Part shown: piece by piece, positions 4,031 to 46,314 of the stretch
How the letters are laid out: every line of letters starts with the position of its first letter
Position numbering within the stretch: the stretch's first letter is position 1
Assembly: GCA_944320855.1 (NCBI GenBank)
Contig: CALUJF010000018.1
Coordinates: 1-55,433 of the forward strand
Direction of reading: 5' to 3'
Origin: an uncultured Phocaeicola sp.
GTDB lineage: Bacteria > Bacteroidota > Bacteroidia > Bacteroidales > Bacteroidaceae
DNA length: 55,433 nucleotides
The notes under the pieces: model-generated
The model's database searches: none
Seen by the model: only the letters and a program-made list of their open reading frames with translations
Told to the model about the DNA's origin: nothing
Program-made: the position numbers and the translations under genes

Positions 4031-4118
4031 GCTGACCATCGTCGGCAGCAATGCCCACCATCGTCAGCAATGGTGCCGACTATCGTCAGCAGCATTGCCT
4101 ACCATGGTCGGCAGCAAA
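4031..4118 (+). repeat. four 22-bp (eight 11-bp) imperfect direct repeats in the HU-HIG leader
   Basis: Exact 22-bp phasing. Each unit begins at 4031, 4053, 4075 and 4097 with GCyNACyATSG followed by TCrGCAryrnT, for example GCTGACCATCG then TCGGCAGCAAT. Individual units can form short hairpins (GCTGAC-CATC-GTCGGC with one G.U pair). The array is far GC-richer than the surrounding DNA and lies in the presumed 5' UTR. There are no unique spacers, so it is not CRISPR. Confidence 0.85.
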
Positions 4119-4154
4119 AAAATATATTGACAGAAACATTAAAAAAACAAGATT

Positions 4155-4784
4155 ATGGGAAAGATTAAATACGATTTTTACAAAAATCCGGACAACAAGG
4201 CAGATAAACTGAAATCGAAATACCACATCAGAATCTGCGACAGGCAAACCATTGGCACAAAGGGGATTGTAGACAATATCCACATGAAAAGCACACTTAC
4301 ATCAGCTGATATTAATGCCGTCATAATAGCCTTTCAGGATGAGATAGCCAATCAGTTGGGGCAGGGAAAGATTGTCAGATTAGAGGGATTATGCAGTTTC
4401 GACATCAGCCTGAGACCTAAAAGCGGAATCTGTACCGGAGAGGAGAGCAGCAAGGAGATAGAGCTGAAATCGGTCAATATCAACCCGGAAAAGGAATTTA
4501 TGGAAAGGGTGCAGAAGTGTATAAACGAAACGGGAATGGAGAAGGTGAAAGGAAAACATTCAGCAACAATCCCGGATGAGAAAGTAGACTCTCTACTGAC
4601 TGAATATTTCAGAAAGGAGAAGACCGTCACCAGACCAAAGCTACAGGAACTCTGCTCAATGACACGCTATATGGCCATGCAGCAAATAAAGCGTCTGACG
4701 GACAGCGGAAAGCTCATAAACATAGGTTTCAAGAATCATCCGCTGTATGTACCGGCTCCGGGATGTTTCGGTACTGAAGAATAG
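4155..4784 (+). CDS. HU-HIG family DNA-binding protein (HU domain plus C-terminal winged helix)
   Basis: 209 aa. The N-terminal ~110 residues fit the Bacteroidota HU-HIG variant of the HU/IHF fold: the start MGKIKYDFYKNPD, then KGIVDNIHMKSTLTSADINAVI, LGQGKIVRLEGLCSFDISL and a region rich in basic residues. Residues ~130-200 (PDEKVDSLLTEYFRKEKTVTR...MTRYMAMQQIKRLTDSGKLINIG) look like a winged helix-turn-helix, one of the accessory domains known for this family. HU-HIG proteins are presumed nucleoid-associated or regulatory DNA binders. The gene lies between an RM operon and an ATPase/Toprim pair and has an unusual repeat-rich leader, which suggests autoregulation or a link to the island. That is inference. 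Confidence 0.8.
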   Translation: MGKIKYDFYKNPDNKADKLKSKYHIRICDRQTIGTKGIVDNIHMKSTLTSADINAVIIAFQDEIANQLGQGKIVRLEGLCSFDISLRPKSGICTGEESSKEIELKSVNINPEKEFMERVQKCINETGMEKVKGKHSATIPDEKVDSLLTEYFRKEKTVTRPKLQELCSMTRYMAMQQIKRLTDSGKLINIGFKNHPLYVPAPGCFGTEE

Positions 4785-4850
4785 AAAACAAAATATGCAT
4801 ATTAGAAGCAAAAACATTGTTAACTCTATTTTACAATACATATATTTGAT

Positions 4851-4858
4851 TAAATTTG
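4851..4858 (+). promoter_or_regulatory. -7 box (TAAATTTG) for the ATPase/Toprim pair
   Basis: TAAATTTG matches TAnnTTTG and lies 33 bases ahead of the ATG at 4892, implying separate transcription from the HU-HIG gene. No clear -33 element is visible. Confidence 0.5.
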
Positions 4859-4891
4859 CGTTCTAAACCATAATTGGAGTATTCAAGGACT

Positions 4892-5926
4892 ATGTTTAAA
4901 AAAATCGAAATAGAAAGATTCAGAGGTATAAGACATGCTTCAATAGGAGGGCTCAGACAAATTAATCTTTTCTTCGGGAAGAATAATTGCGGCAAATCCT
5001 CTTTATTGGAATCATTGTTCTTGGCCAGTGGTTTATCAAATCCGATACTCCCAATCAATGTCAACATAATGCGAGGATATAACAAATCGCGTTTGGATGA
5101 CCTTAAATTGGATTTCTACAACTTAGATTCGACCTGTCCTATCCACATCCGGACTGAGAATGAGGAAATACGCGACTTGAACATTCATCTGTTTGTCAGA
5201 AATCAGAAAAACATTTCCATCAATACAGATGACCCAAACATCCTTTCAAATGTAGAGGAGGAGCAGTATGGACTGAGATTTGAGTTCAAGATTAACAACG
5301 AGCAGTTCTCGTCTTCATTGCATTTCAACTCTGAGGCTCCAAGCAATGCCACTCGACTAATCGCCAAGGATTATACAGAATCTTTGCGTTGTACATACTT
5401 AAGTCCGAAATACGATTTCAATGCATCCATACAGGGATTACAGAATATTCTACAGAACAAGGATGAACGTTTTATAGTGGAAGGGTTGAAATTAATCGAG
5501 CCACGCATCAAAGACTTCATTTTTACAGACAAGGAAATGCTTATCGACATAGGTCTTGCCAAACGTATTCCTGTAAATATGATGGGCGACGGAGCAAGAA
5601 AAATAGTTTCTCTGCTAACCGCTATATACGATTGTAAAGACGGCACTCTGCTTGTTGATGAAATCAGCAACGGTTTCCACCATTCAGTAATGAGCGATTT
5701 ATGGAGAGTTCTTATAAATGCAGCCATAAAGAATAATACCCAACTGTTTGTAACAACCCACGACATTGATTCTATCATAGGCCTCCGAAATGCAGCATTA
5801 CATGATTTCAGTGACACAGCTGCTGCTTTTAAGCTACTTAGAACTCCTGATGACGAATTGAAAGCTTTTCACTATTCATTAGAGAGCCTTGACTATTCCA
5901 TCAATCAAGAAATAGAGATTAGATAA
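4892..5926 (+). CDS. AAA ATPase of the OLD/AAA_15 type, defence-like
   Basis: 344 aa from ATG 4892. An in-frame TTG 18 bases upstream is less likely. It has an SMC/ABC-like ATPase layout: the N-terminal IEIERFRGIRHA strand, Walker A FGKNNCGKSS (28-37, K35), a long middle region, then MGDGARKI (signature-like), Walker B LLVDEISNG (D256/E257) and a switch His in VTTHD (~290). This is the architecture of OLD nucleases and of the ATPase partner in PARIS-like systems, but the Toprim nuclease part is a separate gene that follows after one base. The two would therefore be co-translated and presumably form one complex. Location beside an RM operon supports defence. Target and trigger are unknown. Confidence 0.85.
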   Translation: MFKKIEIERFRGIRHASIGGLRQINLFFGKNNCGKSSLLESLFLASGLSNPILPINVNIMRGYNKSRLDDLKLDFYNLDSTCPIHIRTENEEIRDLNIHLFVRNQKNISINTDDPNILSNVEEEQYGLRFEFKINNEQFSSSLHFNSEAPSNATRLIAKDYTESLRCTYLSPKYDFNASIQGLQNILQNKDERFIVEGLKLIEPRIKDFIFTDKEMLIDIGLAKRIPVNMMGDGARKIVSLLTAIYDCKDGTLLVDEISNGFHHSVMSDLWRVLINAAIKNNTQLFVTTHDIDSIIGLRNAALHDFSDTAAAFKLLRTPDDELKAFHYSLESLDYSINQEIEIR

Positions 5927-5927
5927 T

Positions 5928-6548
5928 ATGAACAGAATTTTTATCGAAGCCAAAAACAATAAAACTCCGGAATACCATTTCCTAATGGCTATTCTGAATG
6001 GTTTCTTTCCAGACAAAGAAATAGAATTTATTTTTATGGATGGCATCGGGAATCTGTTTAATGAAACGAACATAAATCTGATATCACAATCGCAAATCAC
6101 TGAAGATAAAGTTTTAGTCATTGCAGATGCAGACACCAAGGAAAAGGGATATGGATACGAAAAGCGTAAGACTGAAATAGAACAGGGAATGTCAAAACAT
6201 AACATTACGTTTCCATATTTCATATATCCGGACAATCATAGCGACGGCGACGTAGAAGTTCTAATGGAATACTCTGCAAGACGCGACTTGCACTCTGTAT
6301 TTTTCGACTGTTTCGAAGATTACGAGAAATGCGTTTCAGGCATTAAAGACAAGTCCGGCAATGAATTATATAATATCCCGAACAGGAAAGGCAAACTGCA
6401 CACTTATATAACCGCACAAAAGCTGTGCAGCAAATCACGTAACAGATTGGGCTCCGGCGACTGGCTTTTTGGCGACGCAAACTATTGGAACTTAAATTCT
6501 GAAGCACTAATTCCTTTGAAAGAGTTTTTGTCTGTTAACCTAAAATAA
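5928..6548 (+). CDS. DUF3226-like Toprim-fold protein, probable nuclease partner of the ATPase
   Basis: 206 aa, beginning one base after the ATPase stop. It shows Toprim-like acidic residues: E7 in the first strand (RIFIEAKN), an aspartate pair D67-A-D69 after a hydrophobic strand (KVLVIADADT), and PDNHSDGDVEVLM (101-113), which is typical of the DUF3226/DUF4435 group. In OLD-family nucleases and in the PARIS effector the Toprim module cleaves nucleic acid. Here that activity is inferred from the motifs and from pairing with an ATPase. No membrane segment or signal peptide is seen. Confidence 0.72.
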   Translation: MNRIFIEAKNNKTPEYHFLMAILNGFFPDKEIEFIFMDGIGNLFNETNINLISQSQITEDKVLVIADADTKEKGYGYEKRKTEIEQGMSKHNITFPYFIYPDNHSDGDVEVLMEYSARRDLHSVFFDCFEDYEKCVSGIKDKSGNELYNIPNRKGKLHTYITAQKLCSKSRNRLGSGDWLFGDANYWNLNSEALIPLKEFLSVNLK

Positions 6549-6593
6549 AGAACGACAGTGTAAAACATGGTAATTCCACATAATCCATATAAC

Positions 6594-6622
6594 TTTTAAA
6601 CACCATTTAAATACAGTTTAAA
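6594..6622. repeat. 11-bp array, three TTTAAA units
   Basis: TTTAAA begins at 6595, 6606 and 6617, exactly 11 bp apart, about 100 bp upstream of the -7 box of the next gene. It belongs to the same series as the arrays at 24603, 43988 and 46265. Confidence 0.8.
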
Positions 6623-6720
6623 ATGTTATACTTTCGATATTTGGACGATAAAAACGGACAGTTTATCCATAATTTTATATAAAACTATAGGAAATGTTCT
6701 GTTTAGACGAAAAAACTTTC

Positions 6721-6728
6721 TACTTTTG
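6721..6728 (+). promoter_or_regulatory. -7 box (TACTTTTG) for the DUF6242 lipoprotein
   Basis: TACTTTTG matches TAnnTTTG and lies 29 bases ahead of the ATG at 6757. The implied transcription start (~6735) leaves a short leader. Confidence 0.6.
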
Positions 6729-6756
6729 CAACTTGTAACATAGTAATCATTTGCAA

Positions 6757-8169
6757 ATGAAAATAAGAATATTACCTGCATTGGTTGCCGGAGTTATGGC
6801 TACCACTGCTTTTTTGTCATCATGTCTGAAAAGTGACTATACTGAAATTGACTATCCTGCAGAGTCAAGCATTAAGGCTTTTTCTATAGGTACACTTCAT
6901 CAGACCATATATGGAAAGGACTCAGAGGGAAATGACAGTTTCTATGTAGACACTATAAGCTACGCTCATGTTCCGTTCACTATCGACCAGATAAACAGAC
7001 AGATTTACAATAAAGACTCTCTTCCTAAGGAAGTTGACGTGACAAGGGTATTGGCCTCTATCTCGGCTGACAATGGTGTATATTATGTAAACAAGAACGG
7101 GAAAGACACTCTTTGGACTTCAGCCGACTCCTTGGATTTCACGAATGCGGTAACATTCAAGGTCTTGGCTTATAGCGAATTGCAGAATAATTTCGTATTC
7201 GGCAAGCCATATACAGTAAAAGTTAATGTTCATAAACTTAATCCGGACTCACTGTTTTGGAAACATTTCGGGGATAAGAAGTTTGTTGGAGATGTAACTC
7301 TTACAGAACAGAAGGCTGTATATATGAATAAAGATTTGTATGTGTTCGGAAAGACAGAAAGTAATGTTATTAAAGTATTTAAGGCACATGTTCTTAGGGG
7401 AAATATTGATGGATGGGAAGATATTTCTTCAACTGTAGCTGGAACAGATGTCAACATCTACTCTGCAACAGCTTTCAATAATGGCATTTATTATGTAGCA
7501 GACGGAAAGTTATACAAACTGATTGACAATGCTACCGGACAAGTAGGTAGTCTGACCGGATTATCGAACCTTATTTCTGTAAGCAACGACAACCTACTGG
7601 CTTACAACAAAACAGACAACAAAGTTATAACTATCAACGCAAATGGTGAAGAAGTTACCGATGGCAAAAGTTCTTTCGTAAGCGGATACGATTTATCAGG
7701 ACGTTTCTCTGCTATTTCTACTGAATCTACACACAACAGCAATATATGGAGAACTGTAGTTATGACTAATAACTCAGGAACTGCCAAGACCGGCACAACT
7801 GCTAATGTATTCAGCTACATAAGCAGCGACAAAGTCTGGACTAAATTCCAACCAAACAATCCTACTACATGCCCTAACCAGAATAACATCTCCATGATAA
7901 GTTACGACGGCAAGCTATTTGCATATGGTGAAGATTTTGACTATTTCTATTCGTCTACAGACAACGGATTGAACTGGAAAAAAGAAGAAGATTATATGGT
8001 TTTCCCTACACAAGAAAAAAACAATATGTCGCTTGAAGCATACCGCAACGAAGGCAGCTATTCTACCGTAGTGGAAGATAATGGCAATAAAGGCTCATTC
8101 ATATGGTTTATCTGGCAGGACGGAACTGCCACAAGAGCCTGTCTGAACAGACTTATGCCAAAAGAATAA
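6757..8169 (+). CDS. DUF6242-type lipoprotein
   Basis: 470 aa from ATG 6757, chosen over an in-frame TTG two codons upstream. An N-terminal lipoprotein signal ends in LSSC (Cys23), so the protein is predicted to be exported and lipidated. Residues ~35-160 resemble the N-terminal domain of DUF6242 proteins (SSIKAFSIGTL..., YAHVPFTIDQINRQIYNKDSLP), with paired motifs such as ADSLDF. The rest has kelch/propeller-like repeats (IYYVADGKLYKL, SMISYDGKLFAYG, FYSSTDNGLNWKK). Function of the family is unknown. The gene has its own promoter and precedes the envelope cluster by 24 bp, so read-through into uppS is possible. Confidence 0.75.
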   Translation: MKIRILPALVAGVMATTAFLSSCLKSDYTEIDYPAESSIKAFSIGTLHQTIYGKDSEGNDSFYVDTISYAHVPFTIDQINRQIYNKDSLPKEVDVTRVLASISADNGVYYVNKNGKDTLWTSADSLDFTNAVTFKVLAYSELQNNFVFGKPYTVKVNVHKLNPDSLFWKHFGDKKFVGDVTLTEQKAVYMNKDLYVFGKTESNVIKVFKAHVLRGNIDGWEDISSTVAGTDVNIYSATAFNNGIYYVADGKLYKLIDNATGQVGSLTGLSNLISVSNDNLLAYNKTDNKVITINANGEEVTDGKSSFVSGYDLSGRFSAISTESTHNSNIWRTVVMTNNSGTAKTGTTANVFSYISSDKVWTKFQPNNPTTCPNQNNISMISYDGKLFAYGEDFDYFYSSTDNGLNWKKEEDYMVFPTQEKNNMSLEAYRNEGSYSTVVEDNGNKGSFIWFIWQDGTATRACLNRLMPKE

Positions 8170-8193
8170 ATCACTTAAACAGATATTGACAAC

Positions 8194-8925
8194 ATGCTAT
8201 ACAGAGAAAAAATTGACAAGACCAGAATTCCTGCACACATTGCCATCATAATGGACGGAAACGGACGTTGGGCAAAGGAGAAAGGACAGGCACGCACCTT
8301 CGGACATCAGGCAGGTGCGGAAACAGTACATGTCATAGCGGAAGAATCGGCAAGGTTGGGAGTTAAGTTCCTGACTCTCTATACATTCTCTACCGAAAAC
8401 TGGAACAGACCGGTGGATGAAGTGGCTGCGCTTATGAGCCTGCTTATGGACTCGATAGAAGAAGAAACTTTCATGAAGAACAATATAAGTTTCAGAATCA
8501 TAGGCGATACATCAAGGCTGCCGAAGGAGGTTCTGGACCGTCTGAACAGATGTATAGAAAACACCTCGCGCAACACAGGCATGTGTCTGACTCTTGCTCT
8601 GAGCTATTCTTCCAAGTGGGAGATAACAGATGCAGTGAAGAGAATTGCAGAAAAGGTGAAAAACGGCGAGTTGTCTGCCGGTGAAATTACAGACAAGACC
8701 ATAGACGAACATTTGGCTACCAACTATATGCCTGACCCTGAACTGCTTATCCGTACAGGTGGCGAAATAAGACTGAGCAACTATCTGTTGTGGCAGTGTG
8801 CCTACTCGGAATTGTACTTCTGCGACACTTACTGGCCGGACTTCAAGGAAGAGGAACTGTGCAAAGCCATTTGCGACTATCAGGGCAGAGAACGCCGATT
8901 TGGAAAAACAAGTGAACAATTATAA
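8194..8925 (+). CDS. uppS: isoprenyl transferase (undecaprenyl diphosphate synthase)
   Basis: Cis-prenyltransferase that condenses IPP onto FPP to make undecaprenyl diphosphate, the lipid carrier for peptidoglycan and surface glycans. 243 aa is the usual size. It shows the family signature [13 protein letters not shown] (15-27, catalytic D21), FSTENWNRP, and the C-terminal [15 protein letters not shown] and AYSELYF motifs. It is the first gene of an envelope-biogenesis series, with bamA 9 bp downstream, an arrangement common in this phylum. Confidence 0.97.
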
Positions 8926-8934
8926 TATTAAGCA

Positions 8935-11586
8935 ATGAGATACCGTCTTTTACTCATAACTATGATGACCATGGGCATGGCTTTCACAAACAGCAGTGCC
9001 TTCGCCCAGGACAATAATACCGATAATGAAAAACCTGTGATACTGTACAACGGCTCGCCTAAGAAATACGAGATTGCCGACATCAAGGTGACAGGTGTGA
9101 AGAATTACGAAGACTACGTGTTGGTGGGCATTTCAGGTCTTGCCGTAGGACAGACTATCACTGTGCCGGGTGACGATATCACCGGAGCAGTAAAGAAGTA
9201 CTGGAGACACGGATTGTTTTCTGACGTTAAAATATCGGCTGACAAGATTGAGGGCAACAAGATATATCTGCACATTGAGCTGAAACAGCGTCCGCGTATT
9301 ACTGACATAAGGTTTCATGGCGTAAAGAAAAGCGAGCGTGAGGACCTGCAGGCAAAGTTGGGACTCGTAAAGGGTAGCCAGATTACGCCTAACCTTATTG
9401 ACCGTGCAAAGATTCTTATCAAGAAGCATTTCGACGAGAAAGGTTTCAAGAATGCCGAAGTAAACATCGTGGAACGTGAGGATACTGCAAATGCAGAACA
9501 GGTGTACGTGGATGTAAACATCGACAAGAAAGAGAAAATCAAGGTTCATCAGATTATTATAGACGGTAATACTGTACTGACAGACAAGAAGCTGAAGAGG
9601 GTGATGAAGAAAACCAACGAAAAGGGTAAACTTATCAACCTGTTCCGTACCAAGAAATTTATCGAAAGCAACTATGAGGCTGACAAACAGCTCATTATAG
9701 ACAAGTATAACGAATTGGGTTATCGCGATGCCCTTATTGTAACGGACAGCGTAAGCCAGTACGACGACAAGACGGTAGATGTATACATGAAGATATACGA
9801 AGGTGACAAATACTACCTGAGAGATATCACATGGGTGGGTAACACGGTTTACCCTTCTGACCTCCTGAGCGAACAGCTGAGAATGAAGAAGGGTGATGTG
9901 TATAACCAGAAACTGCTGAACGAACGTATCAGCGGCGACGAGGATGCCATCGGTAACAACTATTACAACAGAGGTTATGTGTTCTACAACCTCGACCCTG
10001 TGGAAATCAACATCGACGGTGACTCTATCGACCTCGAAATGCGTATCACCGAAGGCCCGCAGGCTACTATCAGCCATGTGCGAATCAACGGTAATGACCG
10101 TCTGTATGAAAACATCGTACGACGTGAGTTGAGAACTCGTCCGGGCGACCTCTTCAGTAAGGAAGCTTTGGAACGTTCTTATCGTGAAATTGCTCAGATG
10201 GGACACTTCAACCCTGAGAACATACAGCCGGACGTACAGCCTAACGTGCAGGACGGTACGGTAGACATCAACTGGGGACTGGAATCAAAGGCTAACGACC
10301 AGGTGGAATTCTCGGCCGGATGGGGTCAGACAGGTATCATCGGTAAGCTGAGTCTGAAGTTCACTAACTTCTCGTTTGCCAACCTGTTCAGAAAGAATGA
10401 CAACTACCGCGGTATTCTTCCTCAGGGAGACGGTCAGACTCTTACTATCAGTGGTCAGACAAACGGTAGATACTATCAGTCATACAGCATTTCATTCTTC
10501 GACCCATGGTTTGGAGGCAAGCGTCCTACTTCGTTCTCTGTATCGGCATTCTACTCTGTACAGACCGACGTAAGCAGTAACTACTATAACTCGGCATATA
10601 TGAACAACTATTATAACATGCTTTACGGTTATGGCAGCTACTACAACAACTATTATGGCAACTACTATAATAACTATGAATCTTACTACGACCCTGACAA
10701 GTCTATCAAGATGTTCGGTGCGTCAATCGGTTGGGGTAAGCGTCTGAGATGGCCTGACGACTATTTCACTATCTCGGCTGAACTTTCTTACCAGAGATTC
10801 ATGCTTAAGGACTGGAGCTACCTGTACATCAAGCTGAACAACGGACAGTATATGAACACAGGTAACTGTAACAACATCAACCTGAACCTGACTCTTGCCA
10901 GAAACTCTACAGACAACCCTATCTTCCCAAGATACGGTTCGGAATTCTCGGCTTCCGTTTCGTTCACTCCTCCTTACTCGCTCTTCAGCAACAAGGATTA
11001 TTCTACTTACGGAAAAGACAATTACGAAGAGGCTGCAAGCATGTACAAGTGGATTGAATATCACAAGTGGAAATTCAAAGCAAAAACCTATACAGCTCTT
11101 CTGCCGATACAGAAATGTCCTGTGTTGATGACACGTACTGAGTTCGGTATCTTGGGCCACTACAACAAGTACAAACGTTCTCCGTTTGAAACATTCTACG
11201 TCGGTGGTGACGGTATGACAGGATACAGTTACAACTACGCTTCGGAAACTATCGCTCTCCGCGGTTATGAAAACGGTGCGCTGACTCCATACGGTAGCGA
11301 AGGTTATGCATACATCAGACTCGGTGCCGAACTGAGATATCCGCTTATGCTTGAAAACTCTACAAGTATCTATGCTCTCGGATTCGTAGAAGCCGGTAAT
11401 GCATGGACAGATGTAGCGAAGTTCAATCCGTTCCAGTTGAAACGTTCTGCGGGTGTGGGTGTCCGTATCTTCCTGCCTATGATTGGTATGATGGGTATCG
11501 ACTGGGCATACGGTTTCGACAAGATAAACGGCTCAATGCAGTATAGCGGAAGCCAGTTCCACTTTATCATCGGTCAAGAGTTCTAA
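8935..11586 (+). CDS. bamA: outer membrane protein assembly factor BamA
   Basis: 883 aa with an N-terminal signal peptide ending near AFAQ (about residue 25), five POTRA-like repeats (about 45-430, with repeated G-N-x-x beta-alpha-alpha-beta patterns such as VTGVKNYEDY, FHGVKKSERED, IDGNTVLTD, WVGNTVYPSD, INGNDRLYEN) and a C-terminal 16-strand barrel ending in IIGQEF. It inserts beta-barrel proteins into the outer membrane. The barrel holds an unusual Tyr/Asn-rich segment (about 551-585) reading as NNYYN and YYGNYYNNY repeats, probably an extracellular loop. It lies between uppS and the two periplasmic Skp-like chaperones that would hand it substrates. Confidence 0.96.
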   Translation: MRYRLLLITMMTMGMAFTNSSAFAQDNNTDNEKPVILYNGSPKKYEIADIKVTGVKNYEDYVLVGISGLAVGQTITVPGDDITGAVKKYWRHGLFSDVKISADKIEGNKIYLHIELKQRPRITDIRFHGVKKSEREDLQAKLGLVKGSQITPNLIDRAKILIKKHFDEKGFKNAEVNIVEREDTANAEQVYVDVNIDKKEKIKVHQIIIDGNTVLTDKKLKRVMKKTNEKGKLINLFRTKKFIESNYEADKQLIIDKYNELGYRDALIVTDSVSQYDDKTVDVYMKIYEGDKYYLRDITWVGNTVYPSDLLSEQLRMKKGDVYNQKLLNERISGDEDAIGNNYYNRGYVFYNLDPVEINIDGDSIDLEMRITEGPQATISHVRINGNDRLYENIVRRELRTRPGDLFSKEALERSYREIAQMGHFNPENIQPDVQPNVQDGTVDINWGLESKANDQVEFSAGWGQTGIIGKLSLKFTNFSFANLFRKNDNYRGILPQGDGQTLTISGQTNGRYYQSYSISFFDPWFGGKRPTSFSVSAFYSVQTDVSSNYYNSAYMNNYYNMLYGYGSYYNNYYGNYYNNYESYYDPDKSIKMFGASIGWGKRLRWPDDYFTISAELSYQRFMLKDWSYLYIKLNNGQYMNTGNCNNINLNLTLARNSTDNPIFPRYGSEFSASVSFTPPYSLFSNKDYSTYGKDNYEEAASMYKWIEYHKWKFKAKTYTALLPIQKCPVLMTRTEFGILGHYNKYKRSPFETFYVGGDGMTGYSYNYASETIALRGYENGALTPYGSEGYAYIRLGAELRYPLMLENSTSIYALGFVEAGNAWTDVAKFNPFQLKRSAGVGVRIFLPMIGMMGIDWAYGFDKINGSMQYSGSQFHFIIGQEF

Positions 11587-11622: not shown

Positions 11623-11640
11623 CTCAGTTACAAGTTAATA

Positions 11641-11706: not shown

Positions 11707-11796
11707 CTTGTCAGCTTGTCAACTCGTCGACTTGTCAACTAACTTAAAAACTAATAACCAAAGGTCAACGAAGTTAAACTCAAAAACTCAAACATT
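11707..11796 (+). repeat. 8-bp-period leader array upstream of the first ompH
   Basis: Units of 8 bp, CTTGTCAG, CTTGTCAA, CTCGTCGA, CTTGTCAA, follow each other from 11707. After a gap, CTCAAAAA and CTCAAACA (11779-11794) run up to the ATG at 11797. The same style of leader precedes the starts at 32743, 39263 and 39111 (minus). No Shine-Dalgarno site is present. Confidence 0.75.
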
Positions 11797-24602: not shown

Positions 24603-24652
24603 TTTAAAATCCTTTTAAATAGCATTTAAACACTGATTAAACAGTCTTTAAA
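24603..24652. repeat. 11-bp array, five TTTAAA/ATTAAA units
   Basis: Units start at 24603, 24614, 24625, 24636 and 24647, exactly 11 bp apart (TTTAAA except ATTAAA in the fourth). The array begins 25 bp upstream of the CDF -7 box, so it overlaps the region of the -33 element. Confidence 0.9.
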
Positions 24653-24680
24653 TAAAGATTATAATTGAAGTCCTTCTCAG

Positions 24681-24792
24681 TGAACGGCTGGTGAACAGCA
24701 AATGAACAAAATATGAATTTATGTGTCCCTACTTTTCATTGCCCATTAACAAGCGTTCACTAACCGTTCAGTAGCCGTTCATTGCCCGTTCA
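24681..24792. repeat. opposed 11-bp arrays: four TGAAC-type then four GTTCA units
   Basis: TGAAC starts at 24681, 24692 and 24703 with TGAAT at 24714. The complementary motif GTTCA starts at 24755, 24766, 24777 and 24788. Each set is in strict 11-bp register. The two halves are inverted relative to each other and could pair in RNA or bind protein as a dyad. Confidence 0.9.
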
Positions 24793-24851
24793 CTAAACAG
24801 TAGAGATTATTAGTTTACTGACAAAATTGCAACTTTTTCCATATTATATTG

Positions 24852-30370: not shown

Positions 30371-30382
30371 ATTAACTTTCAG

Positions 30383-30482
30383 CGAACACCCAATGAACGC
30401 TCAGTGAACAAAGGATAAACTGCTATGTTGCAAAAGTTTTGCATATTCATTATACGTTCACTACGCGTTCATTATACGTTCA
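30383..30482. repeat. opposed 11-bp arrays around a GCAAAAGTTTTGC palindrome
   Basis: CGAAC 30383, TGAAC 30394 and 30405, TAAAC 30416; then ATTCA 30445 and GTTCA 30456, 30467, 30478. All steps are 11 bp. Between them is a perfect 13-bp palindrome GCAAAAGTTTTGC (30430-30442). It lies between two convergent genes, so it may terminate transcription in both directions, although no long T-run is present. Confidence 0.9.
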
Positions 30483-30498
30483 TTTCGTGATATTATAT

Positions 30499-32686: not shown

Positions 32687-32742
32687 TCGTCAACTTGTCA
32701 ACCCATAACTCACAAACTTAAAAACTCACAAACTCAAACCAC
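32686..32742 (+). repeat. 8-bp-period leader array ending at a start codon
   Basis: CTCGTCAA, CTTGTCAA, one 7-bp unit, then CTCACAAA, CTTAAAAA, CTCACAAA, CTCAAACC, and after two bases the ATG at 32743. The phase is strict except for the 7-bp unit. No Shine-Dalgarno site is present. Confidence 0.85.
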
Positions 32743-36521: not shown

Positions 36522-36615
36522 AAAGCGTGACACGTACGTGTTCCGCCCGTTACACGCTCGTGTTCCGCGCGTTACACGAACGTGTTCCGCGCGTAACACG
36601 TACGTGTCACGCTTT
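36522..36615. repeat. 22-bp (2 x 11) GC-rich array, palindromic overall
   Basis: Alternating 11-mers ACACGTACGTG-type (starts 36530, 36552, 36574, 36596) and TTCCGCSCGTT-type (36541, 36563, 36585). The ends AAAGCGTGA and TCACGCTTT are inverted, so the block is nearly self-complementary around 36568. It is in a convergent intergenic gap and stops just before the stop codon of the minus-strand gene. Confidence 0.93.
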
Positions 36616-39137: not shown

Positions 39138-39148
39138 ATTTCAGTTGG

Positions 39149-39187: not shown

Positions 39188-39240
39188 CCACAAAATAAGT
39201 TTGTGTTACCGTTTTTGGAACAGAAATCAAAACAAAAGAA

Positions 39241-39262
39241 CTTAAAAACTCAAAAACTCATA
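39241..39262 (+). repeat. 8-bp-period leader of mtnN
   Basis: CTTAAAAA, CTCAAAAA, CTCATA run directly into ATG 39263. No Shine-Dalgarno site is present. Confidence 0.75.
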
Positions 39263-39961: not shown

Positions 39962-39992
39962 TTTTTAATTATTAATTTTTAATTCTTCACTC

Positions 39993-40472
39993 ATGAAAAA
40001 GATACCAAGCTTTACAATCGACCATATCCGCATGCTGCGCGGAATATACGTGTCAAGACAGGACCAGGTAGGAACAGAAACTGTGACTACATTCGATATC
40101 CGCATGAAGGAGCCTAACCGCGAACCGGCATTAAGCCCTTCGGCTATCCATACAATAGAACATTTAGCTGCTACATTCCTCCGCAACCATCCTGTATGGG
40201 CAGACAAGATTATATACTGGGGTCCGATGGGCTGCCTCACTGGTAACTATCTTGTAGTAAAAGGTGACTTGAAATCGGCAGACATTCTTCCGCTGATGAT
40301 AGAGACTTTCCGTTTCATTGCCGATTATGAAGGTGAAGTTCCCGGAGCATCAGCAAAAGACTGCGGTAACTATCTGATGATGAATCTTCCTATGGCAAAA
40401 TGGGAAGCCAGGAAGTATCTTGAAGAGGTCTTGGAAAAGGCTACTGAAGAGAATCTGAATTACCCTGCATAA
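39993..40472 (+). CDS. luxS: S-ribosylhomocysteine lyase
   Basis: Converts S-ribosylhomocysteine to homocysteine and DPD, the AI-2 precursor. 159 aa, with [17 protein letters not shown], the metal-binding [10 protein letters not shown] (H..EH), [13 protein letters not shown] (catalytic Cys) and [10 protein letters not shown] (third metal ligand). It uses the product of MtnN, encoded just upstream. It is followed by an 11-bp array and a convergent toxin-antitoxin operon. Confidence 0.96.
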
Positions 40473-40484
40473 ATAAGATTAGCC

Positions 40485-40517
40485 GTTCAGTGAACGTTCA
40501 CTAAACGTTCACTGAAC
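40485..40517. repeat. three tandem 11-bp palindromic units between luxS and higA
   Basis: GTTCAGTGAAC, GTTCACTAAAC, GTTCACTGAAC with no bases between them. Units 1 and 3 are perfect 5-1-5 palindromes. This is the shortest and cleanest form of the TGAAC/GTTCA array family and shows that the two half-motifs belong to one 11-bp site. It sits between convergent genes. Confidence 0.93.
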
Positions 40518-40526
40518 GACTTTAAT

Positions 40527-40862
40527 TTAAAATACTGCTACAGATTTACGTATATTATCCAAAATGGCAGACAACTTGCTATCATGTCTGGCCATCTGCA
40601 TATTATATGCAGACTGCATATTAATCCAAATATAAGCAGGAATATCTGTTGCTGCTTCTATCTTAAGAGCCGTATCAGTAGTTATAGGTCTTTTGCAATT
40701 TATAATCTCATTAAATGCAGTATATGCCATACCTATAATAGCAGCAAATTTACGCTGCGAAATACCACGTGCCTCAAGTTCATCTTTAAGCATCTCTCCG
40801 GGATGTATCGGTATAGATGGAACCAATTCGTATGGGGCATAAATTTTCTTTGATGTATCCAT
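40527..40862 (-). CDS. higA: HigA-type antitoxin (XRE HTH)
   Basis: 111 aa. IPIHPGEMLKDELEARGISQRKFAAIIGMAYTAFNEIINCKRPITTDTALKIEAA is the HigA/VapI helix-turn-helix region (about 18-72) that represses the operon and neutralises the toxin. It lies 6 bp after the toxin gene, in the toxin-first order typical of higBA. Confidence 0.92.
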   Translation of the reverse strand: MDTSKKIYAPYELVPSIPIHPGEMLKDELEARGISQRKFAAIIGMAYTAFNEIINCKRPITTDTALKIEAATDIPAYIWINMQSAYNMQMARHDSKLSAILDNIRKSVAVF

Positions 40863-40868
40863 ATTTAC

Positions 40869-41186
40869 TTATTTATAATGGTTACTTATATCCAATAATC
40901 GACATACAGTTATTATCTGCTCGCCCATTTCTTCTCTTACAGTAAATTCCAGTCGATACTTACGGTTTACTCTAACTGACGAAATTCCTTCCTTATCTCC
41001 ATGCAATGCTTCATAGTTTAAAGCATTGAAACGGAATAAATCGGTTATGGTATTAGCTGAAATAATAGTAAACACAGCTTTCTGGTATCCTCTTATGACC
41101 TCTGGCTGATAACGGTGTTTTCTATCATTCGTATGACCATTTTCAAACAGCTCACGCAGATATTCTTTATCAAACTCAATATACAT
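40869..41186 (-). CDS. higB: HigB-like toxin (RelE/ParE superfamily)
   Basis: 105 aa. Basic protein with MYIEFDKEYLRELFENG, a HRYQPEVIRGYQKAVFTI helix and the beta-sheet segment FNALNYEALHGDKEGISSVRVNRKYRLEFTV, matching HigB ribosome-dependent mRNA interferases, where R and Y residues near SVRVNRKYRL serve catalysis. The first gene of the minus-strand higBA operon. No clear TAnnTTTG box was placed upstream in the 87-bp gap to mgtA. Confidence 0.88.
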   Translation of the reverse strand: MYIEFDKEYLRELFENGHTNDRKHRYQPEVIRGYQKAVFTIISANTITDLFRFNALNYEALHGDKEGISSVRVNRKYRLEFTVREEMGEQIITVCRLLDISNHYK

Positions 41187-41273
41187 TAATTTTTATATTA
41201 TTGTCTGACACAAAGATAGTAATTTTATTTGTATTCACAAAATAAGTGAACATGCAATCGTGACAATTATTTT

Positions 41274-43919
41274 CTACAACCATTTTACAAACTTCCTGAT
41301 ATACCAGTTCTTTATCAGTTGAGTAAGAACACAGTAGGACAACAATATTCCAAAAAGCCACGGGAAATAGCTCAAAGGCAAAGGTTGCAGATCTATAGCA
41401 CTACCGAAACTGCTGAAAGGTATGAACAGACCAATGGCAACAATTATCACTGTAAGGCATCCTACCTGCCAGGAAGAACGACTCTGAATGAAAGGTATCT
41501 TGCGGGTTCTTATCATGTGGACAATAAGAGTCTGCGACAACAATCCTTCCACAAACCATCCGGACTGGAACAATGCCTGATGTTCCACAGAATTACATCC
41601 GAAAACATACCACATCACTACATACGTCAATATATCGAATATGGAACTAATAGGTCCTATATACATCATGAAACGACTCAAATCTGATGCATCCCAACGG
41701 CGTGGTTTTCTGAGATACTCCGCATCCATCCTGTCAAAAGGGATTGTGGTCTGCGACACATCATACAGCAGATTCTGTATCAGCAGATGAATAGGCATCA
41801 TAGGCAGAAAAGGCAAAAAAGCACTGGCAGCCATCACACTGAACATATTTCCAAAGTTGGAACTTGCAGTCATCTTTATATACTTTGTAATATTCCCGAA
41901 AGTCTTCCTGCCTTCAAGAACTCCGTCTTCAAGCACCATAAGGTCTTTTTCCAACAGAATAATATCTGCACTCTCCTTGGCGATATCAACAGCAGAATCA
42001 ACAGATATACCTATATCCGACTGACGCAACGCCGCAGCATCATTTATTCCATCACCCAAGAAACCCACAGTATTATCCTGTTCCTGAAGAAGAGTTATGA
42101 TGCGTGTCTTCTGCATCGGTGTAAGTTTTGAGAATACAGTAGCCTTGGCTACGGCTGTTCTCTGTCCTTCTTCCGACATTGAATCGAATTCCGGTCCGGT
42201 AACAGAATTAGCTGTGTCAATACCTACCTGACGTGCGATGGTACGCACAACAGCATCATTATCACCGGAAAGGACTTTCACCCCTACACCATGCTCGTGC
42301 AACTGACGGATGGCATTAGCAGCCGATGGTTTAGGTGGGTCAAGGAAAGCCAGATATCCTATCAGAACCATATCGTTTTCATCGTCAATACAGAAATCTG
42401 ATTCTTTATCAAGAAAGCTCTTCTGAGCCACAGCAATGACCCTCATTCCCTGACGGTTCATTCTCTCACTTATCTCGCGCGCCTTATCCTTCAATTCTAC
42501 AGTCAGCGGATGTACGTCACCGGCAAATTCTGCATACGAACATATCTCAAGCATTTCTTCTACAGCCCCCTTGGTTATAATCTGACGTTTTCCCTGGGTA
42601 TCCTCAACTACTACCGACATGCGGCGACGTGTAAAGTCGAAAGGAATCTCGTCCACTTTACGGTAATTATCTTTCAGATATTCAAGCGAAAGGTCTTTCA
42701 CGTGCGAAAGAATAGCCTTGTCCATAAGGTTTTTCAATCCGGTCTGGAAGAAACTGTTGAAATAGGCATGACGCAGGATACGCTTGTTCTCGTCGTTGCT
42801 GCCATCGGCATTGATATATTTCTCGAGGACTATCTGGTCGCAAGTCAATGTGCCGGTCTTGTCCGTACACAGAATGTTCATTGCTCCGAAATTCTGAATG
42901 GCATTAAGGTCCTTCACAATTGTCTTCTTTTTCGACATAGCAACGGCTCCTTTAGACAAGTTGGCGGTAACAATCATAGGAAGCATCTCCGGCGTAAGGC
43001 CTACTGCCACAGATACTGCAAAGATGAAAGCCTCAAGCCAGTCGCCTTTGGTAATACCGTTAATAAGAAAAACAAAAGGAATCATCACAAGCATAAACCG
43101 GATGAGCAAAAAACTGACCTTACTGATACCCTTGTCGAAAGCAGTTGCCGCACGATGTCCTGCTATACTGCGTGCGATGGTGCCGAGATATGTATTATTC
43201 CCTGTAGCAATTACTATACCTACTCCGGAACCGCTCACCACATTGGAGCCCATGAAGCTGATATTACCCAATTCCACCACACTGCCACTCTTTGCACCCT
43301 TACAGTCCGGCGTTTTCTCTATAGGGTCCGATTCTCCTGTCAGCGATGCCTGGCTTACAAACAAGTCTTTAGCCTCAACAATACGCACATCGGCTGGAAT
43401 CATATCTCCGGCAGCTATTCTCACTACATCTCCCGGAACAAGCTCCGTAATGCTTATCTCGCATGTATCATCATTGTCCTGCCTTATTACACTGCATGTG
43501 TTTGTAACCATTTTCAGCAAAGCATCGCTTGATACATTTGCTTTCCACTCCTGCCAGAAACGAAGTATCGAACTTGATACAACCATTACAGATATGATTA
43601 TTATGGCAGTCCAGTCCTGCTCACCCGGAGCAGCAATAGCCACATCAAGTACAAACGAAACTATGACCAGTATGGTAAGAACACCTATAAACGGATTTAT
43701 GAATGCCTTGACAAAGGTTGATACAGGATTTTTCTTTTTTTCATGTTCCACCTCGTTCACTCCATACTCGGAACGGCGGATTTCCACTTCTTCAGTAGAG
43801 AGCCCTCGCGGGTTGGTCTGAAAATAGTTGAATACTGAGTCTACAGGCTGTGAAGCAGCAAGAAATACTTTCTCTGCATTAAAAGCTGAATTTGGTCCGA
43901 TTTTTTTCTTCCTCAACAT
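41274..43919 (-). CDS. mgtA: magnesium-translocating P-type ATPase (P3B)
   Basis: 881 aa. P-type ATPase hallmarks: TGES (A domain), the TM4 motif VGLTPEMLPMIV characteristic of MgtA/B, DKTGTLT phosphorylation site, KGAVEEM and FLGDGINDAAAL hinge motifs, then six C-terminal TMs. Imports Mg2+ across the inner membrane. The promoter at 43968-43975 is preceded by an eight-unit 11-bp array, and a two-component system of the OmpR class lies directly upstream. Low-Mg control by that system is plausible by analogy with PhoPQ-mgtA but is inference. Confidence 0.94.
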   Translation of the reverse strand: MLRKKKIGPNSAFNAEKVFLAASQPVDSVFNYFQTNPRGLSTEEVEIRRSEYGVNEVEHEKKKNPVSTFVKAFINPFIGVLTILVIVSFVLDVAIAAPGEQDWTAIIIISVMVVSSSILRFWQEWKANVSSDALLKMVTNTCSVIRQDNDDTCEISITELVPGDVVRIAAGDMIPADVRIVEAKDLFVSQASLTGESDPIEKTPDCKGAKSGSVVELGNISFMGSNVVSGSGVGIVIATGNNTYLGTIARSIAGHRAATAFDKGISKVSFLLIRFMLVMIPFVFLINGITKGDWLEAFIFAVSVAVGLTPEMLPMIVTANLSKGAVAMSKKKTIVKDLNAIQNFGAMNILCTDKTGTLTCDQIVLEKYINADGSNDENKRILRHAYFNSFFQTGLKNLMDKAILSHVKDLSLEYLKDNYRKVDEIPFDFTRRRMSVVVEDTQGKRQIITKGAVEEMLEICSYAEFAGDVHPLTVELKDKAREISERMNRQGMRVIAVAQKSFLDKESDFCIDDENDMVLIGYLAFLDPPKPSAANAIRQLHEHGVGVKVLSGDNDAVVRTIARQVGIDTANSVTGPEFDSMSEEGQRTAVAKATVFSKLTPMQKTRIITLLQEQDNTVGFLGDGINDAAALRQSDIGISVDSAVDIAKESADIILLEKDLMVLEDGVLEGRKTFGNITKYIKMTASSNFGNMFSVMAASAFLPFLPMMPIHLLIQNLLYDVSQTTIPFDRMDAEYLRKPRRWDASDLSRFMMYIGPISSIFDILTYVVMWYVFGCNSVEHQALFQSGWFVEGLLSQTLIVHMIRTRKIPFIQSRSSWQVGCLTVIIVAIGLFIPFSSFGSAIDLQPLPLSYFPWLFGILLSYCVLTQLIKNWYIRKFVKWL

Positions 43920-43967
43920 TGTTCTTTCTTTTTTCAGCGTTACACATTATGATTAAATTTCACGCTG

Positions 43968-43975
43968 CAAAAGTA
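43968..43975 (-). promoter_or_regulatory. -7 box (TACTTTTG) for mgtA
   Basis: Minus-strand TACTTTTG, 49 bases ahead of the ATG at 43919. The first units of the 11-bp array lie 13 and 24 bp upstream of it, overlapping the -33 region. Confidence 0.65.
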
Positions 43976-43987
43976 GTATGAAGCGGT

Positions 43988-44070
43988 TTCGAACAGTGTT
44001 AGAAGACTATTAGAACGGTATTAGAATTCCATTAGAATGATGTTTAGAACTCATTTAAGTGATATTTAAA
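43988..44070. repeat. eight-unit 11-bp array (TTAGAA/TTTAAA) upstream of mgtA
   Basis: Units start at 43988 (TTCGAA), 43999, 44010, 44021, 44032 (all TTAGAA), 44043 (TTTAGA), 44054 (TTTAAG) and 44065 (TTTAAA), every one 11 bp after the last. The last unit overlaps the stop codon of the histidine kinase gene. The motif grades from TTAGAA to TTTAAA, linking it to the TTTAAA arrays elsewhere. Confidence 0.93.
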
Positions 44071-45436
44071 GATGTTCCATCTCCACCACAAAGGTTATAC
44101 CCTTTCCCTCGTCGGACAATACATTGATTTTACCCTGATGGAGATTTATTATCTTCCGGGCCAGGGCCATACCTATGCCATGACCTGCCGCAACATGTTC
44201 CTGCTTACCTCTGTAAAACAGTTTGAACATGTTCTGTCGCTCATCTTCGGAAAGTCCCGCTCCATTGTCGGACATACGGACTACCGTCCATTTATCCCAA
44301 AACGAAATCTGCACAAATGAAGTCCTGTCCGGTGAGTACTTGCAATTATTCTCTATCAGATTTGAGAAAGCTATACTGAGAAGATATAAGTTTCCGCTGA
44401 CAGTGACAAAACGGTCATCATCCGTTTCCTGTTCATCGAAAACCAGTTCAATCTTATATTCGGGGTGTGCCCTGAGAATACATTCGCGCACATCAAGCAG
44501 AAGTTCGTCAAGACGTATCTCCTGCATACTTATCTGTTCCTTACCATAATCCGCCTTGGCAAGATTAAGCAGTCCGTCTATCAGACTGTTCATCCTGCGC
44601 GCATCGTTCATCACATTGTCAAGCGCATCCCTGTACTGCTGCGGAGTACGCTCTTTCTGAAGTGTTATCCCCAACTCTGCCATCAGAGCCGCAAGCGGAG
44701 TACGCAGTTCGTGCGACACATTGCTTACGAACATCTTCTGCGAATTGAAAGACTCTTCAAGCCTTGAAAGCAAATCGTTGAAAGTAGTTGCCAGCTCGCC
44801 AAGTTCATCCTTTTCGTTCTTGACAGGCAATCGGCGACTGATACTTGTAGCAGTGATATTCTCTGACTCGGCTACAATATCACGGATTGGCTTCAAAGCT
44901 GCACGCGAAAGATAATATCCGGAAACAAACAATAGACTCAGTCCAACGACAAACAATACTATAAGCGCATTAAGAAGAGAGGCGAGATTATCATATCCAT
45001 ATCCATCGTACGCAGCAGCTGTGACTACATATTTCCTTCCTCCATAGTCATAAAGCATACCTATACACTGATAACCGTCTACATAAAACTCCATATCACC
45101 ATCAGTCACTATGGTCTGTATCATGGCGCTGTCCTCCTTTATTATATCATTCTGCACTGCGTCGTGATAGAGCATAAGGAATGAAGTGTCATACACAGCC
45201 ACTTCAACCTCATTGATAAACTTACGGTTATTAAGATATATGGACTGCATTATTTCAGAGTCCACCTGTCCTCCAAGAAAGAGATGAGCCTTCGTCACAG
45301 CCTCACTCCTGAGGTCATGAAAAAAAGTATTGCTTCGGATACGCTCACTTGCCACATATACCAATGACAAGCATAGCGCGAAAACAGCTGCCGTTACAAG
45401 CGAATTTTTAAGAGTTAGTGCGGTTCTTATCTTCAT
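44066..45436 (-). CDS. sensor histidine kinase (two-component system)
   Basis: 456 aa. TM1 about 13-30, extracytoplasmic sensor 31-154, TM2 about 155-178, HAMP (179-230), HisKA with NVSHELRTPLAALMAE (phospho-His242), and a HATPase domain with NLIENNCKYS, DNGAGL and GHGIGMAL. It overlaps the response-regulator gene by 4 bp, so the pair is co-translated. The sensor domain has tyrosine-rich AAYDGYGYDN near the membrane. The signal is unknown; mgtA downstream and a TonB receptor upstream suggest metal or envelope stress. Confidence 0.94.
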   Translation of the reverse strand: MKIRTALTLKNSLVTAAVFALCLSLVYVASERIRSNTFFHDLRSEAVTKAHLFLGGQVDSEIMQSIYLNNRKFINEVEVAVYDTSFLMLYHDAVQNDIIKEDSAMIQTIVTDGDMEFYVDGYQCIGMLYDYGGRKYVVTAAAYDGYGYDNLASLLNALIVLFVVGLSLLFVSGYYLSRAALKPIRDIVAESENITATSISRRLPVKNEKDELGELATTFNDLLSRLEESFNSQKMFVSNVSHELRTPLAALMAELGITLQKERTPQQYRDALDNVMNDARRMNSLIDGLLNLAKADYGKEQISMQEIRLDELLLDVRECILRAHPEYKIELVFDEQETDDDRFVTVSGNLYLLSIAFSNLIENNCKYSPDRTSFVQISFWDKWTVVRMSDNGAGLSEDERQNMFKLFYRGKQEHVAAGHGIGMALARKIINLHQGKINVLSDEGKGITFVVEMEHL

Positions 45437-46122
45437 AGCGGTTTATCTGTCAGAATAAATCCCATTCCTGGTTTTGTGTGTATAAGTTTGGTATCGAAAT
45501 CCTTGTCTATCTTCTTGCGCAGATAGTTTATATAGACATCAATGAAGTTTGTTCCCGTATCGAAATGTGTATTCCAAACCTTCTCTGCTATCTCCATACG
45601 GCTTATCACCCTTTCAGAATTCTCAACCATATAAACTAAAAGATTATATTCTTTGGGTGATAGTTTTATCTGCACTCCGGCACGAGTTACCTCGCATGTA
45701 TTAAGATTGATTGATATGTCAGAATATGATATAGAGTCAGGTCTTGCAACCTGTGGCGATGAATATCTTTTCAGCAGTACCTTAATACGTGCATTAAGCT
45801 CCCTGAAATCGAATGGTTTCAGCATATAGTCATCTGCTCCGGCATCAAAGCCATCGAGTTTATCATCGGTAGAGCCGAGAGCTGTAAGCATAAGAACCGG
45901 TACGTCCGGATTGATTTTCCTTATCTCCTTGCAAAGACCGAAACCGTCAAGTCCGGGAAGAACAATATCAGAAATAACAAGATGGAACTCGTTTGAGCGA
46001 AACAGGCGCAATCCCATTTCTCCATCGTATGCCACCATCACATTATAGCTGTTCTCCTCAAGTCCGGCTTTAAGGAGGTCGGCTACACGCTTCTCGTCTT
46101 CTACTATCAATATACTCTGCAT
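45433..46122 (-). CDS. OmpR/PhoB-family response regulator
   Basis: 229 aa. Receiver domain with ILIVEDEKRVADLL, phospho-acceptor D52 in LVISDIVLPGLDG, conserved Thr/Lys in LMLTALGS and MLKPFD, then a winged helix (about 130-228: VQIKLSPKEYNLLVYMVENSERVIS...NFIDVYINYLRKKID). This class binds DNA as tandem dimers on direct repeats spaced 11 bp. Arrays with precisely that period lie upstream of this gene (46157-46314) and between the kinase gene and mgtA (43988-44070). Confidence 0.95.
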   Translation of the reverse strand: MQSILIVEDEKRVADLLKAGLEENSYNVMVAYDGEMGLRLFRSNEFHLVISDIVLPGLDGFGLCKEIRKINPDVPVLMLTALGSTDDKLDGFDAGADDYMLKPFDFRELNARIKVLLKRYSSPQVARPDSISYSDISINLNTCEVTRAGVQIKLSPKEYNLLVYMVENSERVISRMEIAEKVWNTHFDTGTNFIDVYINYLRKKIDKDFDTKLIHTKPGMGFILTDKPL

Positions 46123-46156
46123 ATAGTCATAAGTTTAGTTAATCAATCAGTCCTAA

Positions 46157-46245
46157 CGAACGGGCAGTGAACACGAAATAAACGGACAGTGAACACAGAA
46201 AGAAAACATTCATTATATGTTCATAAGCCGTTCACTGAGTGTTCA
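46157..46245. repeat. opposed 11-bp arrays (CGAAC/TGAAC then GTTCA) upstream of the response regulator
   Basis: CGAAC 46157, TGAAC 46168, TAAAC 46179, TGAAC 46190; then ATTCA 46208 and GTTCA 46219, 46230, 46241. Eleven-bp steps within each half, halves inverted to one another as at 24681 and 30383. Confidence 0.9.
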
Positions 46246-46264
46246 CCGGATGTCATCATTATTC

Positions 46265-46314
46265 ATTAACCGGCATTTAAACACTGATTAAATACCGGTT
46301 AAACGCCATTTAAT
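46265..46314. repeat. 11-bp array, five TTAAA-type units at the end of the TonB receptor gene
   Basis: ATTAAC 46265, TTTAAA 46276, ATTAAA 46287, GTTAAA 46298, TTTAAT 46309, each step 11 bp. The last unit overlaps the receptor's stop codon. About 145-190 bp upstream of the response-regulator start on the same strand. Confidence 0.88.

Follow-up and report, generated by a model that had tools for sequence, protein, structure and literature searches.

Why do intergenic arrays built from different words keep the same 11-bp step? The question is raised by a stretch of 55,433 nucleotides from an uncultured Phocaeicola sp. (contig CALUJF010000018.1 of assembly GCA_944320855.1, positions 1 to 55,433 of the forward strand), hereafter the window, which represents contig C18 of a genome of 3.33 Mb in 123 contigs. 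Its methionyl-tRNA synthetase shares 84-91% identity with the 14 best hits, in records labeled Bacteroides, Phocaeicola, Prevotellaceae, Paraprevotella or Parabacteroides, which presumably places the organism in the Bacteroidaceae. An initial annotation had listed nine such arrays in the window and had proposed that they form one system in which the unit sequences are unrelated. We found that the 11-bp arrays are real, extend over the sampled genome and are intergenic, and that their main unit types mostly fit a single frame. We give a probability of slightly under one half to the explanation that the arrays of TGAAC, TTTAAA and GTTCA units are double-stranded-DNA binding lattices, which are helix-phased, polar and often located near the 3' ends of genes.

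The 11-bp step and the shared frame of the units

Tandem repeats in the window were located with Tandem Repeats Finder, which assigns a period of 11 or 22 bp to positions 4027-4117, 6595-6622, 24614-24652, 24754-24796, 30379-30410, 30446-30484, 36525-36607, 40484-40518, 43991-44037 and 46277-46304, and a period of 22 bp (with 4% indels) to 46159-46205. The TGAAC arm at 24681-24707 is not listed by the program and was found by pattern. The 11- or 22-bp step of the nine arrays is thus borne out. We then counted exact 5-mer matches against dinucleotide shuffles in the 28 intergenic regions of the window (4,258 bp, delimited by genes of our own choice). There were 68 matches at lag 11 versus 9.0 in shuffles (z 14.8), 90 versus 8.1 at lag 22 (z 26.0) and 23 versus 7.4 at lag 33, while the highest z among lags that are no multiple of 11 was 5.0 (lag 19). 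The initial annotation had suggested extending this autocorrelation to the genome, which was sampled as 21 stretches (the window plus the first 20 kb of 20 contigs) with 225 intergenic regions (34 kb). Genes were called by a simple longest-ORF (open reading frame) rule; for the gene context of TGAAC clusters and TTTAAA arrays given below, a minimum of 300 nt was applied equally to arrays and baseline, and counts in brackets are repeats with a minimum of 180 nt. The sampled intergenic DNA peaks at lags 11 (357 versus 81), 22 (512 versus 71) and 44 (178 versus 60), and the coding DNA of the same sample has no excess at lag 11 (396 versus 431) or lag 22 (385 versus 415). A simple array rule selects 46 of the 225 regions, comprising 16/40 convergent, 24/142 tandem and 6/43 divergent ones (convergent versus rest, Fisher p 0.002); a few of these 46 are AT-rich and may be chance.

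Most of the TTTAAA, TTAGAA and TGAAC/GTTCA units can be aligned to a single 11-bp frame (RTT-NN-AAY with 3 further bases), in which the right half (TGAAC) occupies left arms, the left half (GTTCA) right arms, and full dyads the middle. Contig C105 contains 15 successive 11-mers in one register, passing from (x)TGAAC through TTTAAA, TTAGAA and GTTCGAAC to GTTCA, and the lattice L192 is much like it. Triples of these unit cores occur 40 times at step 11 in the 225 regions and not once at any of the steps 6-10 and 12-18; the cores themselves were read from 11-bp arrays, so that this count tests exactness and is no blind discovery. In coding DNA (377,517 bp) there are two triples at step 11 and none at 9, 10, 12 or 13. 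The step-11 triples fall in 16 of the 225 regions, which by extrapolation scales to roughly 120 loci per genome.

Across the whole genome, the pattern TGAACN{4,8}TGAACN{4,8}TGAAC has 132 matches versus 3 for the reversed pattern, and TTTAAAN{3,7} triples number 59 per strand versus 0 for the control. Although the gap was left free, all 100 TGAAC triples in the stretches of this genome are spaced N6/N6 and all 24 TTTAAA triples N5/N5. The five letters between TTTAAA units read YRSYR in 101/129 cases (several clade genomes), compared with 5/160 after isolated TTTAAA. Moreover, the TTTAAA-to-TGAAC phase read from C105 is exact in 5 of 11 other loci (p 0.002) and within 1 bp in 9 of 11. The notion of a free unit sequence is therefore not supported for the TTTAAA, TTAGAA and TGAAC/GTTCA units, which have a frame in common and, in the case of TTTAAA and TGAAC, also a phase; ACACGNNCGTGT and GCCGACCATCG represent separate families. 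Likewise, the RTTNNAAY arrays can be regarded as one system, while the GC-rich 22-bp arrays have the period alone in common with them. Within the units, pyrimidine-purine steps possibly follow a 4-4-3 spacing, and a loop word, GTCAACCAAAATCAGGAAAAGACAGTTT, recurs inside two TGAAC..GTTCA lattices (L182 and L204).

Several members of this frame are found in the window. A three-unit TTTAAAYRSYR array (6595..6628) lies upstream of a DUF6242 gene and has a match with similar flanks in L147 of genome G135 (compared by eye). Between the divergent cation efflux and methionyl-tRNA synthetase (metG) genes, TTTAAA-type units at 11-bp steps (24603..24657) are accompanied by a three-unit TGAAC arm on the forward strand (24681..24707), which faces a four-unit GTTCA arm on the reverse strand (24755..24796), both at an 11-bp step. 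A forward TGAAC arm (30379..30411) and its reverse GTTCA partner (30446..30485) are located between convergent genes. Another convergent gap, of 54 bp, contains a compact palindromic GTTCA/TGAAC array (40485..40518) that folds low, since only 2/100 draws with re-drawn spacers were as low. Finally, a TGAAC/TAAAC arm (46157..46205, forward) and a GTTCA arm (46208..46248, reverse) are followed by TTTAAA/TTAAAC units (46274..46316).

Gene context and distribution among genomes

Twenty-two (23) of the 49 TGAAC clusters lie between convergent genes, which account for 15.2% (17.8%) of the intergenic length (p 7e-7 (3e-6)); of the remaining clusters, 20 (21) are in tandem gaps, 4 (3) in divergent gaps, and 3 (2) have an unknown neighbor. 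In 16/20 tandem gaps (p 0.01; 17/21, p 0.007), the sense strand has TGAAC first, and the cluster is closer to the upstream stop codon in 16/20 (16/21). With 22/49 convergent, 4/49 divergent and 16/20 tandem clusters nearer to the stop, the TGAAC lattices do not have the location of promoters. Counts obtained for these clusters under an earlier 150-nt rule agree with the recount. The TTTAAA arrays (n = 58) are in tandem gaps in 37 (36) cases and closer to the upstream stop in 25 (26) of these; for both families pooled, 41/57 (42/57) are closer to the stop (p 0.001 (0.0005)). TGAAC clusters thus show a clear polarity and 3' bias, and TTTAAA arrays a weaker one.

The distribution was followed in 60 genomes of the genus and in a broader set of 393 genomes of the order (two of them from this genus). 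Based on metG DNA, which was matched in 58/60 genus genomes, eight genomes, the window's own included, group together, the other seven with 91-94% identity to the window, and all other full-length matches are at most 83% identical. TTTAAA triples number 59, 52, 40, 34, 25, 24, 11 and 4 per strand in this clade of eight and 0-3 elsewhere in the genus, and ACACGNNCGTGT (ACACG) arrays number 41, 22, 17, 16, 14, 13, 11 and 3, with none elsewhere except one in a single genome. Among the 60 genomes, both array types are therefore specific to the clade of eight species. TGAAC triples number 132, 37, 28, 19, 8, 4, 0 and 0 in the clade, with a few of them off-step and 0-4 matches for the reversed-pattern controls. 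Long TGAAC runs in genome G082 have a 9-bp step and are a different kind of repeat, which is perhaps coding. In the broader set, TTTAAAYRSYR triples occur in 4/393 genomes, with 34 in this genome and one in each of three others.

Two genomes of another genus, g23 (G049 and G023), have 11-bp arrays with words of their own (TACGTTCAAGG, TACGGGGTAGG and TATATGTAAGC), and one array keeps its register through a change of word. In the same genus, an array of about 17 units (L115:6308-6644) repeats TATAT unchanged every 11 bp, the other letters of the unit changing along the array. Around metG in 80 Bacteroidales (690 regions), regions with at least six matches peak at lag 22 (30 regions), followed by 19 at lag 7 and at lag 14, 14 at lag 21, 11 at lag 23, 7 at lag 11 and 2 at lag 24. 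Twelve stretches of six genomes of the same genus as the window (among them the clade member G041) have only 3/115 regions at lag 11 and one at lag 22. In 15 locus pairs, a biased choice as most were picked because both members had arrays, changed bases amount to 4/334 in TTTAAA, 30/205 in spacers and 465/4,699 in flanks (partly coding). A search of openly licensed PubMed Central papers retrieved no description of such arrays.

Proposed binding lattices and alternative explanations

Eleven bases correspond to about one turn of the DNA helix. Under the binding explanation, each 11-bp unit would offer an 8-bp site, RTT-NN-AAY (with TGAAC and GTTCA as half-sites), and successive sites would face almost the same side of the helix, so that proteins could line up next to each other, one for each turn, in a cooperative manner. 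The arms would then be head-to-tail half-sites of opposite polarity that are able to meet around full dyads. Because TGAAC clusters mostly lie downstream of genes (in convergent gaps, or behind a stop codon, in which case the sense strand carries TGAAC), protein bound at gene 3' ends may act as a roadblock, a terminator aid or an insulator. Candidate binders that would presumably fit are a head-to-tail OmpR/PhoB-like winged-helix protein or an Arc/ParR-like ribbon-helix-helix protein. The centromere parC of plasmid R1, which consists of 11-bp iterons bound by the ribbon-helix-helix protein ParR, resembles the lattices in having two groups of 11-bp iterons with one protein per turn; however, parC is a single locus beside parM/parR, while the lattices are found at many chromosomal loci. 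A wider proposal is that in a Bacteroidaceae clade many genes are marked at their 3' ends by polar lattices, which a cooperative DNA-binding protein coats so as to insulate genes or block read-through. Given the lattices with other unit words in genus g23, the 11-bp step rather than the word may be the conserved device; we consider this wider proposal doubtful. If a protein does coat the lattices, Bacteroidales would have a kind of chromosomal structure not recognized before: polar strips in phase with the helix, often close to gene ends, in which the step is fixed and the word changes fast. Close relatives without TGAAC triples (G041 and G135), and others without single lattices, offer a clean natural experiment.

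In favor of the binding explanation are the exact 11-bp step, the recurrent YRSYR letters of the spacers, the common frame and the TTTAAA-TGAAC phase, the placement of the arrays relative to genes, the few changes in TTTAAA letters among locus pairs and the operator case at 43989-44051. A number of observations weigh against binding lattices. No binder protein was found for them. Convergent gaps with TGAAC (n = 22) are not uniformly organized, with 9 (10) in the order TGAAC..GTTCA, 5 (5) in reverse order and 8 (8) one-armed. A phase lock between the arms of TGAAC..GTTCA clusters was considered and not adopted, as 7/21 share one phase and 5/21 another, and the TTTAAA-GTTCA phase has the predicted value in just 3/11 loci, including the defining locus C105. 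TTTAAA arrays show no convergent enrichment (12 (12) of 58, p 0.16 (0.33)), and 9 (10) of the 58 lie between divergent genes; an enrichment of 17/58 under the 150-nt rule, caused by spurious short ORFs, was withdrawn when uniform gene calling gave 12/58. Genome G170 keeps the gene order at the gap between the response regulator and TonB genes, with a gap of about 70 bp that has no TGAAC lattice. Similarly, a TTTAAA array of 44-48 bp (L097:16577-16623), lying between one ORF's start codon and the stop codon of the adjacent ORF, is present in G000 and G154 and cleanly absent in six of the eight species compared. The initial annotation had pointed to the same loci in relatives, and the outcome is mixed, as some loci keep their array and others are without it. 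Lastly, some TGAAC clusters fold well as RNA: at p <= 0.05, 7/29 two-armed clusters and 3/20 one-armed clusters (mean z -0.20 over the 20) outperform versions with re-drawn spacers.

These folds bring up RNA hairpins, which would serve as bidirectional terminators or as stabilizers of mRNA 3' ends, and 11 bp is also one turn of A-form RNA. The enrichment of TGAAC clusters between convergent genes, the near-perfect palindromes at L143, L151, L154 and L156, and the overall palindromic ACACG array at 36522 all agree with this explanation. Nevertheless, two-armed TGAAC clusters average just z -0.62, and replacing the spacers of the 58 distinct TTTAAA arrays by others drawn from the pool gives equally good folds (mean z 0.09; 5/58 at p <= 0.05). 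Facing S letters in TTTAAA arrays are complementary in 27/59 cases, which equals chance, and the array L144 is followed by an ordinary terminator with a hairpin and T-run. Re-drawing of spacers led us to reject hairpins as a general rule, which leaves them rather unlikely as the explanation of the arrays, and to keep them for the palindromic subset; some TGAAC clusters thus seem to make hairpins as well. Small mobile or copied elements, spread through the intergenic DNA of the clade in the manner of miniature inverted-repeat transposable elements (MITEs) or repetitive extragenic palindromes (REPs), would account for the many copies, the intergenic location and the clade specificity. The metG promoter of related species has different arrays or none, and the clean presence or absence at the tight gene boundary of L097:16577-16623 also suits an element that is gained and lost. 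Against such elements, inspection by eye showed no constant ends, neighboring spacers differ as much as those of different arrays, and C and G are about equally frequent at S. Membership among MITEs or REPs was not adopted, since presence/absence variation is found but shared sequence and fixed ends are not, and we regard this origin as rather unlikely. According to PMC3733652, REPs are palindromic repeats of small size (20-40 bp) that occur in high copy. The arrays resemble REPs and bacterial interspersed mosaic elements as many short intergenic palindromic repeats, but here conservation is limited to the 8-bp frame and the 11-bp step. The MITE BrickBuilt of Porphyromonas gingivalis is likewise a family of tandem repeats in intergenic DNA of Bacteroidales, but differs in what PMC4596501 describes: tandem 23-nt units, a leader and tail, small inverted-repeat ends and 19 occurrences in one strain; the passages of another P. 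gingivalis repeat paper (PMC5771137) mention no 11-bp or 22-bp repeats.

Two further explanations need no specific protein. The arrays may be an extreme form of the ordinary bacterial helical periodicity of about 11 bp that goes with curvature or supercoiling, with which they share the period and, as described for the 11-bp AA/TT periodicity of E. coli, the concentration in intergenic DNA (PMC516772). That periodicity, however, is described in PMC516772 and PMC4132750 as a dinucleotide signal and not as arrays of fixed words; here, whole fixed words recur (TGAAC, RTTNNAAY, YRSYR), TGAAC arms are polar, and 52/60 genus genomes have at most three TTTAAA triples per strand, which makes this explanation improbable. 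Replication slippage favoring 11 bp, as in minisatellites, had been suggested by the initial annotation. Some length differences between orthologues do equal whole 11-bp units, one unit being an exact copy of its neighbor (L144/L217), and the arrays of the other genus are near-perfect tandem copies (L115). In this genome, by contrast, neighboring spacers are as different as random pairs (2.86 versus 2.69 for TTTAAA, 3.70 versus 3.71 for TGAAC), and identical neighbors number 0/79 and 0/100, respectively. As neighboring spacers are not alike, a recent slippage origin is not supported, and we consider slippage very improbable.

Operator-like and other repeats in the window

The array of TTAGAA units at 43989..44051 (forward strand) is most likely a common OmpR/PhoB-type operator, located at a P-type ATPase gene and belonging to the two-component system next to it. 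Operators of OmpR/PhoB-class response regulators consist of 11-bp direct repeats. The array lies upstream of the P-type cation ATPase gene (41274..43919, reverse), the probable target, and is followed by genes for a histidine kinase (44066..45436, reverse) and an OmpR-type response regulator with a receiver and a Trans_reg_C domain (45433..46122, reverse). Its units are at 11-bp steps, and the last step alone, to TTTAGAA, is 12 when measured by the TTAGAA word. A CTACTTTTGC-like element near the array is presumably a Bacteroidetes -7 box. An array between the ATPase and kinase genes is also present in G161, G170, G144 and G139 (one spacer change in the latter), hence in five species with the window, the loci having been fetched by gene homology. 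Among 12 genomes scanned, eight contain an orthologue of the regulator (at least 73% identity); TTAGAA 11-bp triples occur in 7/8 of these and in 0/4 without it (two of the four only 83-84% complete; Fisher p 0.01), with the reservation that five of the eight are from one clade and the cases are not independent. The eighth, G158, has weaker TTAGAG/TTAGAA units upstream of its ATPase gene, seen by eye. Overall, the array precedes the ATPase gene in G000, G161, G170, G144, G139, G141 and G158, and another gene in G112. In G141, it precedes an ATPase homologue (83%) on a contig other than that of the regulator, which fits action in trans. This genome has one more TTAGAA triple, which belongs to the C105 lattice. 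The OmpR/PhoB precedent named by the initial annotation thus very probably holds for one of its nine arrays, which offers a candidate operator, open to testing, for an OmpR-type system apparently in control of a P-type ATPase.

The window response regulator was also considered as the binder of the TGAAC arrays, which seemed attractive because G041 and G135 are without both. It was not adopted: G154 has 37 TGAAC triples and no orthologue was found in it (83% complete), and G049 and G023, of another genus, have TGAAC arrays without the regulator. The lattices and OmpR/PhoB operators have head-to-tail 11-bp repeats in common, and the array at 43989-44051 co-occurs with its neighboring OmpR-type regulator across genomes. 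In contrast to such operators, TGAAC clusters are mostly convergent or after stop codons and can carry arms of opposite polarity and full dyads, and TTTAAA arrays persist in G041 and G135, where the regulator paralogues found are only about 35% identical.

The GC-rich 22-bp arrays at 36522 and 4031 are families separate from the RTTNNAAY lattices. The ACACGNNCGTGT array has four units (36522..36614) and lies between convergent genes. Its two-unit pattern has 41 matches per strand in this genome; these arrays step by 22 bp, and the second half of many matches bears another dyad, ACGNNCGT or GAGNNCTC, at a distance of 11 bp. A separate 22-bp family of the GCCGACCATCGTCAGCAGCAAT type (4027..4117, period 22 and 44) is located upstream of the HU-HIG gene and has a second copy at L081:8287-8370. 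The 22-bp step is shared by this array at 4031 and by arrays with TACATATGTA, GACACGTGTC and AAACGACGAAGCGTTTT cores, some of which look like terminator hairpins with an extra arm. Terminator-like hairpins of the AAACGACGAAGCGTTTT type with a third arm are found at L086:15925-16002 and L094:381-453 (both with a 22-bp step), and also upstream of the regulator gene in L223 and L224.

Further short tandem families stand out in the genome sample at lags 7/14 and 8/16. In the window, a AACTCAAA-like family with an 8-bp step is located at 11776-11792, 32707-32738 and 39239-39260. The window also encodes a restriction-modification cluster (301-3856), in which two C-5 cytosine methylases flank a BpuJI-like endonuclease with a NOV_C domain, and, at 53798-55427, an AbiEii-type protein (type IV toxin-antitoxin family) that is overlapped by a second small ORF.

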